Assembly: GCF_013408525.1 (NCBI RefSeq)
Contig: NZ_JACBZM010000001.1
Location: 868,001-932,000, forward strand
DNA: 64,000 bases
Source: Nocardioides aromaticivorans
GTDB lineage: Bacteria > Actinomycetota > Actinomycetes > Propionibacteriales > Nocardioidaceae
Direction: 5' to 3'
Part shown: one piece after another, positions 4,081 through 44,094 of the stretch
Layout: every line of letters begins with the position of its first letter
How positions within the stretch are numbered: position 1 is the stretch's first letter
Position numbers and translations under genes: made by a program
The notes under the pieces: generated by a model
Databases searched by the model: none
What the model was told of the DNA's origin: nothing
What the model saw: only the letters and a program-made list of their open reading frames with translations

Positions 4081-4820
4081 AGCTCACTCTGAAGATCTGG
4101 CGGCAGGAGAACCCCACCGCCACGGGTGCGATCCACACGTACGAGCTCGACGGCGTCTCGAAGGACATGTCCTTCCTGGAGATGCTCGACCTGCTCAACG
4201 AGCAGCTCGTCACCAGCGGCGAGGAGCCGGTCGCGTTCGACTCCGACTGTCGCGAGGGCATCTGCGGCATGTGCTCGCTGATGATCAACGGCGAGGCGCA
4301 CGGCCCGGAGGTCACCACGACCTGCCAGCTGCACATGCGCTCGTTCAACGACGGCGACACCATCACCATCGAGCCGTGGCGTGCCGAGCCCTTCCCGGTC
4401 CTCAAGGACCTGGTCGTGGACCGCTCCGCCTTCGACCGGATCATCCAGGCCGGCGGCTACATCTCCGCCAACACCGGCTCGGCCCCCGAGGCCAACTCGG
4501 TGCCGGCGCCGCGCGACAAGGCGATGCGGGCGTTCAACGTCGCGACCTGCATCGGCTGCGGCGCGTGCGTCGCGGCGTGCCCCAACGGCTCGGCCTCGCT
4601 GTTCATGGGTGCCAAGATCACCCACCTCGGTGAGCTGCCGCAGGGCCAGCCCGAGCGCTGGTCGCGCGTCGTCGACATGGTCGGCCAGCACGACCACGAG
4701 GGCTTCGGCGGCTGCACCAACATCGGTGAGTGCGCGGCCGCGTGCCCCAAGGAGATCCCGCTCGACGTGATCTCGCAGCTCAACAAGGACCTGCGCACCG
4801 CGCTGAAGAACGGTCACTGA
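4077..4820 (+). CDS. sdhB: Succinate dehydrogenase iron-sulfur subunit
   Basis: Electron-transfer subunit of complex II, 247 residues. Cysteines for the [2Fe-2S] cluster are C58, C63, C66 and C83. The [4Fe-4S] and [3Fe-4S] ligands are in [12 protein letters not shown] (C158, C161, C164, C168) and [12 protein letters not shown] (C213, C219, C223). The start is GTG 4077, overlapping the sdhA stop as GTGA, which indicates translational coupling. An open frame extends upstream inside sdhA but is a shadow. A strong hairpin follows the gene, closing the sdhCAB operon. Confidence 0.95.
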
Positions 4821-20300: not shown

Positions 20301-20963
20301 TCACAGGTGCTTGAGGGCCTCGCGCCGGCTCAGCGGGCTCAGCTCGTGGCCCGCCACGTAGGAGCGCACCCAGTCGGGGTGCACCTTCGCCGCCTCGCGC
20401 AGCGACCACCCGACGGCCTTGCGGACGAAGAACTCGGGGTCGGCGAGGTTCGGCCCGATGACCTCGGCGAGCAGGTCGAGGTCGACCCGGTCGCGGCGGC
20501 CGAGCTGGCTGATGATCGCCAGGCGTCGTACCCACAGGAAGTCGTCGGTCGACCAGCGGCGCACGACCGCGGCCGTCTCGGCGGGGTGGGCGTCGTGGAG
20601 GTCGGCGACCCGGTGGGCGGCCTCGTCGACGTGGTCCCACCAGGCACCGGTCCGCGCGACGTGCTCGTGGAAGGGGACGAGGGAGAGGTCGCCGCGCAGC
20701 GGCCGCAGGCCGAGCAGGACGGCGGCGGCGTAGCGCTCCTCGCGGTGGGTGGCGTCGTCCCACAGCTCGCGGGCCGTGGGGACCAGCTCGTCCGGGGAGC
20801 TCACGCCGAGGTCCCGGACGAGCGCGCGGACGAGCCGGCGGACCTCGGGGACGCGGACGCCGAGGAAGGGCATCGCGGACTTCATGTACGCCTGCTGCCC
20901 GGGCGCCAGGGACGCGTCAGCCGCGGCCCGCAACGTGCTGCGGACCGCGGCTGACAGCGACAT
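20301..20963 (-). CDS. AlkD-like DNA alkylation repair protein
   Basis: 220 residues of the HEAT-like-repeat DNA alkylation repair family (AlkD/AlkC related DNA glycosylases that remove N3/N7-alkylated purines). Typical features are SAMPFLGVRVPEVRRL near residue 30, DDFLWVRRLAIISQ and the signature FVRKAVGWSLREAAKVHPDWV near residue 183. Length matches the family. It follows icd by 20 bases on the same strand and precedes the ABC exporter; no functional tie to either is evident. Confidence 0.85.
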   Translation of the reverse strand: MSLSAAVRSTLRAAADASLAPGQQAYMKSAMPFLGVRVPEVRRLVRALVRDLGVSSPDELVPTARELWDDATHREERYAAAVLLGLRPLRGDLSLVPFHEHVARTGAWWDHVDEAAHRVADLHDAHPAETAAVVRRWSTDDFLWVRRLAIISQLGRRDRVDLDLLAEVIGPNLADPEFFVRKAVGWSLREAAKVHPDWVRSYVAGHELSPLSRREALKHL

Positions 20964-42670: not shown

Positions 42671-42780
42671 TGTAACACGCTGTTCGCCCGTCTACCTGCC
42701 GGGATTCAGGGACGACACGCCGCAGAACGGTCGGATCGGCCCTGAAAACCGCCGACCAGTTGAGCGACCAGCGTGTTACA
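42671..42780. repeat. 110-bp palindromic repeat, copy A
   Basis: Starts TGTAACACGCTG and ends CAGCGTGTTACA, with nested inner arms TTCAGGG and CCCTGAAA around the core ACGACACGCCGCAGAAC. The whole element can fold into one long hairpin. It aligns without gaps to copy B at 43985-44094 with 85 of 110 identical bases; the core is the best conserved part. It lies between pcrA and the nuclease-like gene. Confidence 0.93.
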
Positions 42781-42906
42781 TGAGGACGGCCGCCCCGCCC
42801 CGGATTCATCCACCCGCCCTCCACAGGCACTCCGTGCGCGTGGGATATCCACCGGCCGACGGCGCGAGGGGTGGCCCAGCCGGAGCGGGCGGGGACGCTC
42901 GCTCCC

Positions 42907-43959
42907 ATGAATGCTCGTGTGGCTGCGCTGATGAGCGCCCAGTGGGGCCTGGTCACGCGCCGGCAGGCGCTCGAGGCCGGCATGACCGGCGCACGCATCG
43001 ACCACCTCCTGCGCACCCACCGGTGGGAGGCGCTGCGAACGGGCGTGTACGCCGAGACCGCCTTCACTGCCCTGCTGTCCACCGCGCTCCAGCGGAAGGT
43101 CCTGGCGGACCGGGCGGCGAGTCTTCGGATCGCGGCCGCGCACGTGATGAGCCACCACTCCGCGGCCGACCTGTTGCGCATGCCACTGCTGAACGAGCGG
43201 ACGCCGAACACGCACGTCACGCGGCCGGGCATCGTCGGGTCGCACCTCCGACACGGGGTCAAGCACCACCTGGCGCCCTACGCGCCGCACCAGGTGGTGA
43301 CGGTCGAGGGCGTGCAGGTGCTGGACCGGGCACGTACGGCGCTCGACGTCGCGCGGGAGGAGGGCTACCTCGCCGGACTCGTTGCCGCCGACGCCGCGAT
43401 GCGCGCTGGAACGAGCAGGCACGAGCTCTCGGCAGCAGCCGCCGCGATGCGTTGCTGGCCCCACGTGAACGTCGTCCGCGACGTGATCGCGTCAGCCTCG
43501 GCGTTGACCGACTCGATCGCCGAGACCCTCGGGCGCGACCTCGTCACCGAGCTGGGCTACGGCGTTCCCCAGCCACAGTTCGGGCTGACGGCCGACGGGC
43601 GGACCGTCTGGTGTGACCTGCGGCTCGGACGCCACTTCTTCGAGATCGACAGCCGCCTGAAGCTGCGACCGCTCGCGGCGGGCGGGCTGTCGGTGAGGGC
43701 GCCCGAGGAGACCTTGTGGGACGAGAAGCTGCGGCAGGACTTCGTCACCGGCTTCAAGACCGGCGTGTCGCGCCTGACCTGGGACGACTTCTTCGGACGA
43801 CGGCGCCGGGCGGCCCTGGACCGGTGCCGCCGCGAGTTCCTCGATACCTGCGCCAGGTTCGGCACCGACATCTCCGACCTGGCGCAGTTCCGGCCACGGA
43901 GCCCCAAGCCCCCGGTCGCCGTACCAGCCGGACCGCTGCTACCCGCGTGGCTCCCGTAG
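42907..43959 (+). CDS. AbiEi-like winged-helix and DUF559-type PD-(D/E)XK nuclease protein
   Basis: 350 residues. The N-terminus (VAALMSAQWGLVTRRQALEAGMT) is the winged-helix domain often labelled AbiEi-type antitoxin. The C-terminus fits the DUF559/Vsr-like nuclease fold: E206 (SIAETLGRD), D237 (VWCDLRLG), E246-x-D248 (FFEIDSRLK) and a final GVSRLTWDDF strand. These residues match a PD-(D/E)XK site although the usual EVDG is EIDS. Such genes are numerous in Nocardioides and their role is unknown. Here the gene is bracketed by two 110-bp palindromic repeats. ATG 42907 is chosen over an upstream GTG. Confidence 0.7.
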   Translation: MNARVAALMSAQWGLVTRRQALEAGMTGARIDHLLRTHRWEALRTGVYAETAFTALLSTALQRKVLADRAASLRIAAAHVMSHHSAADLLRMPLLNERTPNTHVTRPGIVGSHLRHGVKHHLAPYAPHQVVTVEGVQVLDRARTALDVAREEGYLAGLVAADAAMRAGTSRHELSAAAAAMRCWPHVNVVRDVIASASALTDSIAETLGRDLVTELGYGVPQPQFGLTADGRTVWCDLRLGRHFFEIDSRLKLRPLAAGGLSVRAPEETLWDEKLRQDFVTGFKTGVSRLTWDDFFGRRRRAALDRCRREFLDTCARFGTDISDLAQFRPRSPKPPVAVPAGPLLPAWLP

Positions 43960-43984
43960 CGCCCGCCGAGCAGACCCAGCGTGA

Positions 43985-44094
43985 TGTAACACGTGGTTCG
44001 CGCAACATGGCGCCACTTCTCAGGGACGACACGCCGCAGAACTGTCGGTTGGGCCCTGAAAGGCGCCCCCCAGTTGAGCGGACGGCGTGTTACA
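43985..44094. repeat. 110-bp palindromic repeat, copy B
   Basis: Starts TGTAACACG and ends CGTGTTACA; inner arms GGCGCC..CTCAGGG and CCCTGAAAGGCGCC surround the same core ACGACACGCCGCAGAAC. Same orientation and same length as copy A. Several stem positions differ between copies while pairing is kept, for instance the GGCGCC arms. Confidence 0.93.

Follow-up and report, generated by a model that had tools for sequence, protein, structure and literature searches.

The stretch of DNA analysed here (the window) comprises 64,000 nucleotides of the genome of Nocardioides aromaticivorans, positions 868,001 to 932,000 of contig NZ_JACBZM010000001.1 in assembly GCF_013408525.1, and the subject of this work is a putative nuclease gene in it, together with the two palindromic repeats, A and B, by which this gene is bracketed. 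Repeat A (42671..42780, plus strand), the upstream bracket, is 110 bp long and lies in the divergent intergenic region between a pcrA/uvrD gene on the minus strand and the nuclease gene on the plus strand. The nuclease gene (42907..43959) begins with an ATG codon, encodes 350 amino acids and is the single predicted gene between the two repeats. Repeat B (43985..44094, plus strand), the downstream bracket, is likewise 110 bp long and lies 25 bp past the stop codon, in the intergenic space between two convergent genes. Each repeat begins and ends with a half-site of the form TGTAAC-N5-GTT-N7-CT, the second one being inverted. In A, the outer half-site occupies 42671..42693 (plus strand) and the inner, inverted one 42758..42780 (minus strand); in B, the inner half-site occupies 43985..44007 (plus strand), deviating at position 23, and the outer, inverted one 44072..44094 (minus strand).

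The repeats and the protein in the window

An earlier examination of the window, referred to below as the sequence-only reading, had described two palindromes of equal length and orientation around one gene, each folding into a hairpin, with an identical core and with stem changes that keep pairing. All of this was confirmed. The two copies align without gaps, with 85 of 110 bases identical, and both fold better than all 200 of their dinucleotide shuffles (z -5.4 for A and -4.1 for B). They share a 17-base core of which the window has no third match at three or fewer mismatches; two core matches alone are not significant, since at least two were found in 17 of 100 shuffles. Among nine copies from the same genome, two-sided changes preserving the pairing were observed in 7 of 32 predicted pairs. 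The palindromes end in TGTAAC/GTTACA, and not in GTAG. The sequence-only reading had also noted inverted bases outside the repeats, and CCGC before A and GCGG after B are indeed present; however, the flanks of the 11 copies in this genome show no consistent extension, so these bases are probably due to chance. A covariance model of the family recognises A (E 3e-28) and B (E 3e-26), both of which were among the sequences used to build it, and the next match in the window has an E value of 9e-5. This latter match (20915-20956) is a short GC-rich hairpin lacking TGTAAC ends and is probably unrelated.

Predicted folds cover residues 1-318 of the 350 in the protein, with an AbiEi-antitoxin-like module at residues 1-200 and a PD-(D/E)XK domain similar to Vsr/I-Bth0305I at residues 202-318, in agreement with the winged helix and PD-(D/E)XK-like nuclease that had been proposed from the sequence. 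An alignment of 48 sequences shows no variation at residues D237, E246 and K252. The PADLOC models for AbiEi match the N-terminal part of three proteins of the family (best E values of 1.6e-12 to 1.9e-15), and public sources label homologues as 'type IV toxin-antitoxin system AbiEi family antitoxin domain-containing protein'. Neither between the two repeats nor in the Pfam-scanned neighbours was an AbiEii (DUF1814) toxin detected at E<=0.1, a search confined to the window. Scans against Pfam/NCBIfam gave no match to an HUH tyrosine (Y1/IS200-like) transposase at E<=0.1 among 14 family members, nor to any transposase family in the window protein and family members. Neither sequence relatives in the PDB (E<=1) nor matches to phage protein families (three members searched) were detected.

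Bracketing of the nuclease gene in related genomes

When 215 Nocardioides genomes were searched with the window stretch, relatives of the nuclease were found also at sites other than the pcrA locus. At 12 loci from this search, including that of the window, the covariance model R1 located the repeat on both sides of the gene in 11 cases and on one side in the other (G131). A profile built from 14 proteins detected the family in 137 of the 215 genomes at E<=1e-60, mostly with one member per genome. The sample of loci was composed of 30 loci, 60 further profile matches, 20 more places, some of them in other genera within the family and order of Nocardioides, and 5 loci of the N. luteus group, giving 115 rows. 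Locus L209 was set aside for its short flank, and four of the remaining 114 rows are second records, which leaves 110 distinct loci, 99 from Nocardioides and 11 from its family or order.

Flanks were considered to match at a local score of at least 60. Of 22 predicted open reading frames (ORFs) of 250-600 codons in the window, the nuclease gene alone has matching flanks (score 109, the next being 39). Across the sample, matching flanks were found in 104 of 114 rows and at 100 of 110 distinct loci, and in none of the 114 rows after exact dinucleotide shuffling of the flanks, where the maximum score was 39. When the flanks were shortened and a cruder shuffling procedure was used, which falls back to single-base shuffling, 103 real rows matched and 0 of 114 shuffled ones did (maximum 35). 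Comparison of flanks across different loci gave a median score of 31, with 95th and 99th percentiles of 50 and 340; the high scores presumably come from orthologous flanks. As a further control, ORFs of similar size were examined at loci of the N. luteus group, whose genomes are rich in repeats, and 4 of 134 proved to be bracketed, none of them a nuclease; two of these are one prenyltransferase-like gene in two genomes, and the other two are different genes. At four loci (L127, L083, L087 and L143), the gene beside the nuclease unit has a third palindrome on its far side, with spacings of about 1.0 and 1.2 kb. This gene of the N. luteus group, which we take to be menA from its appearance, is among the four bracketed control ORFs. 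In N. luteus JCM 3358 (L107), at about position 4616, the downstream palindrome and some 30 further bases are missing, the upstream palindrome being retained.

Anatomy of the brackets

The comparison of these loci establishes that the predicted nuclease gene of these soil bacteria, mostly present in a single copy, has a bracketing repeat on either side; the ends of this repeat usually carry a half-site in inverted orientation. A strict finder, requiring the ends TGTAAC and GTTACA with up to one mismatch each and at least 62% pairing, located palindromes on both sides at 59 distinct loci; a further 18 have one on a single side. Among all 144 palindromes obtained, 119 measure 70-72 bp, 3 measure 90 bp, 21 measure 109-110 bp and one measures 69 bp. 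Typically, the upstream palindrome is placed some 70-180 bp before the profile match and the downstream one approximately 0-120 bp after it. Among the 100 bracketed distinct loci, the flanks match in inverted orientation only at 25, and in inverted or both orientations at 95. The half-site defined in the window recurs in the palindromes, whether of 70, 71 or 110 bp, and in many inverted-repeat forms (e.g., G190 and G443), that of G190 lacking a clear CT; TGTAAC was preset in the finder, and the GTT and CT were not.

Palindromes of 70 bp from 40 loci have a mean pairwise identity of 54%. Their symmetric positions pair in 80.9% of cells, a figure raised by the 62% pairing requirement of the finder, compared with 54.2% when shuffled and 23-29% when slid, and 20 of 35 pairs use at least three Watson-Crick types. 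The elements of the N. luteus group have arms of two types, CTCGCCC and CCGGTCG, and the heterotypic combination leaves part of the inner stem unpaired. Two different arm types were found in 88 of 108 elements, 53 being expected at random (orthologous copies were counted separately), which suggests distinct left and right ends. What stays constant in these elements is their length and the pair of inverted half-sites. Full hairpin pairing is therefore not required there, and the idea of a strict palindrome as the functional unit everywhere is weakened. The other possibility raised by the sequence-only reading, a nuclease with paired structured RNAs, found no positive support: Rfam gave no match near the gathering score, and the inner stem is non-complementary in most N. 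luteus-group copies.

Some brackets depart from this plan. The inverted-repeat brackets at L249-L253, L287 and L293 contain short subterminal repeats, CCCGGGTAG, in variable number, resembling the subterminal binding sites of some transposons. At L049 (G010) and L051 (G041), the covariance model finds long hairpins with ends unlike TGTAAC, one of them adjoining an inverted repeat, CTAGAACACGTTCTAG.

Dispersed copies and cognate repeats

Genome searches also establish that the bracketing repeat is dispersed as solitary copies, mostly extragenic with respect to predicted genes. A DNA search and model R1 located 11 full-length copies in the source genome, all of 110 bp, nine of them outside the window. 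The seven of these nine that were inspected are intergenic or overlap the end of a predicted ORF by a few to about 20 bases, and their neighbours are unrelated (e.g., genes for pyruvate kinase, a PaaX-type regulator, transporters, and an acyl-CoA dehydrogenase). From this genome alone, the link between repeat and nuclease would look accidental. In the N. luteus group, 92 of 99 elements are mostly outside predicted ORFs; 8 of the 99 lie between divergent genes and 37 between convergent ones.

The repeat family goes with the nuclease predicted in the same lineage. Thus, when 12 bracketing repeats were searched jointly in their 12 genomes (251 matches in all, palindromes being counted on both strands), all of the matches listed were on the segment of their own genome; a few rows run some bases into the neighbouring segment. 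A 71-base query from the N. luteus group matched all nine genomes of the group (28-55 matches each, on both strands) and none of 11 others. Genome G190 carries close inverted pairs of its own terminal repeat, similar to miniature inverted-repeat transposable elements (MITEs). Upstream and downstream half-sites of the same locus differ on average at 2.4 of 23 positions (59 loci), and half-sites of different loci at 8.5. Half-site distance correlates with protein distance (r 0.32; none of 999 permutations as high), a correlation that would also be obtained from vertical co-inheritance alone.

Genomic sites and inheritance

From its flanking genes, grouped partly by hand, the whole unit can be assigned to several genomic sites, at least eight in number, with 20 of 115 rows unassigned, and at one site it is seen in both orientations, which are opposite in two sister clades. 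A tree of 110 proteins, leaving out the four duplicate rows and the short L286, requires 9 site changes, the least possible being 8 and the shuffled mean 56.5. The unit is therefore mostly stable in its position, and relocations are rare. Genomes G033, G034, G150, G151 and G190 have an empty pcrA junction, the unit being found at another place in them.

A second nuclease-repeat pair and the wider phylum

Outside the window, the source genome encodes a paralogue (L026, G000:C1:4902434-4903321) with 27% identity to the window protein. It is bracketed by a different, unrelated repeat built on GCAGGAATCCCCGG...CCGGGGATTCCTGC, which matches 12 other places; at seven of these, the match is a palindromic element of 94-100 bp. 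Of 396 sampled genomes from the phylum, 7 have a match at E<=1e-25, the source genome included. At the eight loci other than that of the window, the bracket score is at least 60 at six, and 51 and 48 at the other two. Taking into account the bracketed paralogue and these six loci, the layout seems general to the AbiEi-Vsr nuclease architecture.

Interpretation

We consider, with moderate confidence, that these data are best explained by a nuclease-palindrome system, a functional counterpart, with an unrelated enzyme, of the REPIN-RAYT systems, in which doublets of repetitive extragenic palindromes accompany a REP-associated tyrosine transposase. The REP/RAYT-like layout suggested by the sequence-only reading is strongly supported by the 100 bracketed loci, by the genome-specific repeats with their solitary copies, and by the several sites of the unit. 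It is proposed that the protein would act as a dimer, using its AbiEi-like winged helix to bind both of the half-sites that stand in inverted orientation in a repeat. This is the best-founded step, by analogy, since AbiEi and Rv2827c bind 23-bp inverted repeats according to the relevant passages of PMC7319586; those of PMC3985639 describe AbiEi as autoregulating through its winged helix. The nuclease domain would then nick or cut at the repeat, whose DNA might at that moment form an extruded hairpin or cruciform, or be single-stranded at a replication fork. Repair from another copy, or its capture, would spread and homogenise the repeats, and the same processes would rarely move, and rarely invert, the whole unit. 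The predicted nuclease fold and the pattern of the repeats point to such cleavage and spread, and we infer from them that the nuclease may act on the repeat and that the unit may move. More tentatively, and here we lean slightly towards doubt, AbiEi-Vsr fusion nucleases could form a hitherto unrecognised, Actinomycetota-wide class, each of them the dedicated propagator of its own fixed-length extragenic palindromes, with an evolutionary origin independent of the HUH-based REPIN-RAYT systems and with two unrelated pairs coexisting in the source genome.

Several observations weigh against the proposed system. Besides the bracketed control ORFs and the heterotypic arms described above, 10 of 110 distinct loci fall under the cut-off, among them L187, L107 and L179, with a palindrome on one side only, as well as L281 and L284, which belong to different families within the order. 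At some bracketed loci, the ends do not resemble TGTAAC (e.g., L259, L288, L290, L292, L282, and L283), and of three weak paralogue matches in the source genome one is bracketed and the other two are not. In G093, among the matches listed, just the two bracketing copies were found at E<=1e-5. Many solitary copies of the N. luteus group occupy orthologous places in several species, which indicates slow turnover, and presence/absence differences among them also exist. Orthologous sites were contiguous for at least 6 of 10 chosen elements, and 20 stretches were aligned for six of these; there are orthologous empty sites, but their intergenic flanks are too diverged for a clean insertion to be read. 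One empty site (G062) keeps a nine-base remnant, apparently the footprint of a deletion, which means that losses take place. Finally, direct repeats of 2-9 bases, as expected of target-site duplications, were not above permutation in 106 elements of the N. luteus group, a test that old or decayed duplications could escape.

Among the other explanations, an AbiEi-like repressor is unlikely, if worth serious consideration. The upstream palindrome would be its own operator, the dispersed ones its regulon, and the nuclease domain vestigial or with another role. AbiEi and Rv2827c autoregulate via 23-bp inverted repeats in their own promoters, as passages of PMC7319586 and PMC3985639 describe; the predicted fold of the N-terminal module, the 23-bp span of the half-site, and the position of A in a divergent promoter region are in accordance with this. 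However, at most loci a second repeat lies just downstream of the gene, few elements of the N. luteus group lie between divergent genes and more of them between convergent ones, and the three invariant residues of the nuclease domain do not suit a vestigial one.

It has also been considered, as a rather improbable explanation, that the unit is an ordinary insertion sequence with often self-palindromic ends, the nuclease being its transposase and the solitary copies MITEs. This overlaps with the nuclease-palindrome system, the difference being whether the unit itself is the active element. The loci with inverted-only flank matches, the MITE-like pairs of G190, and the several sites would fit an insertion sequence, although the unit is mostly single in each genome and inherited in place, with no target-site duplication detected and no transposase family matched.

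A defence or toxin-antitoxin locus, in which an AbiE-derived antiphage nuclease would use the palindromes for expression, spread or self-recognition, is very unlikely. The PADLOC matches and the public name of the homologues favour it; however, no partner toxin was found in the unit or among the scanned window neighbours, and the dispersed cognate repeats would be left without explanation.

Coincidence, in which a dispersed repeat would flank the gene by chance, was considered when the unrelated neighbours of the solitary copies were seen, and 4 of 134 other ORFs are bracketed too, but it is refuted by the conserved bracketing in relatives (100 of 110 loci, the repeats differing from lineage to lineage, and none of 114 rows once the flanks were shuffled) and can be dismissed. 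In the sequence-only reading, a repeat lying mostly far from such genes was to count as evidence of coincidence; literally, this is the case in the source genome, with nine of 11 copies elsewhere, but it is the wrong test, because a REPIN-like system predicts solitary dispersed copies.

Relation to known systems and significance

Filed by layout alone, the nuclease-palindrome system would be placed with REPIN-RAYT. In the portions of PMC3116915, PMC3733652 and PMC8049555 that deal with them, REPIN-RAYT systems consist of a single-copy gene and of the doublets that flank it, which are extragenic, dispersed and specific to the lineage; the brackets of RAYT and TIRYT genes are palindromic in some cases and inverted repeats in others (parts of PMC3116915 and PMC3733652). 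The system found here likewise has dispersed, lineage-specific extragenic inverted doublets, with 11 copies in the source genome, flanking a mostly single-copy and mostly vertically inherited gene. However, the HUH tyrosine transposase is replaced by a predicted AbiEi-like module with a Vsr-like nuclease, the GTAG end tag by TGTAAC ends (in the window and at those loci for which the finder reported them), and the system was found in Actinomycetota. Because the predicted enzyme is unrelated, it is not a member of REPIN-RAYT.

With the AbiE type IV toxin-antitoxin systems (AbiEi/Rv2827c) it shares the predicted winged-helix antitoxin fold, but it has an additional nuclease domain, repeats that are both bracketing and dispersed, and no partner toxin in the window unit. 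The Vsr-like catalytic fold is predicted as in the Vsr/I-Bth0305I homing endonuclease/TnsA branch of PD-(D/E)XK proteins; here it is joined to an AbiEi-like module and stands alone in an intergenic unit. As in classical insertion sequences with MITEs, terminal inverted repeats are present (95 of 100 bracketed loci), whereas the target-site duplication was not detected in the 106 elements mentioned. Bacterial MITEs and ERIC or RUP repeats are fixed-length extragenic palindromes of about 70-130 bp. The repeats described here are of this kind too, but each family is tied to a nuclease gene that it brackets, and target-site duplications were not detected.

No description of the nuclease-palindrome system was found in the open-licence literature of PubMed Central, a scope that does not extend to subscription journals and bioRxiv. 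The layout has precedents, but the AbiEi-Vsr enzyme class is not known to be used for it in any other kind of system. To our knowledge, HUH tyrosine transposases are the only dedicated single-copy enzymes for which associated, long-lived populations of repeats have been described. If the proposal is true, the same layout with a second, unrelated enzyme class would mean that such repeat populations are a general outcome, and what keeps them alive would become testable by comparing two independent systems. Moreover, a family whose only name to date is that of an antitoxin domain protein would acquire a candidate DNA target, and its nuclease-site pairs, which may be orthogonal, would make up a panel.
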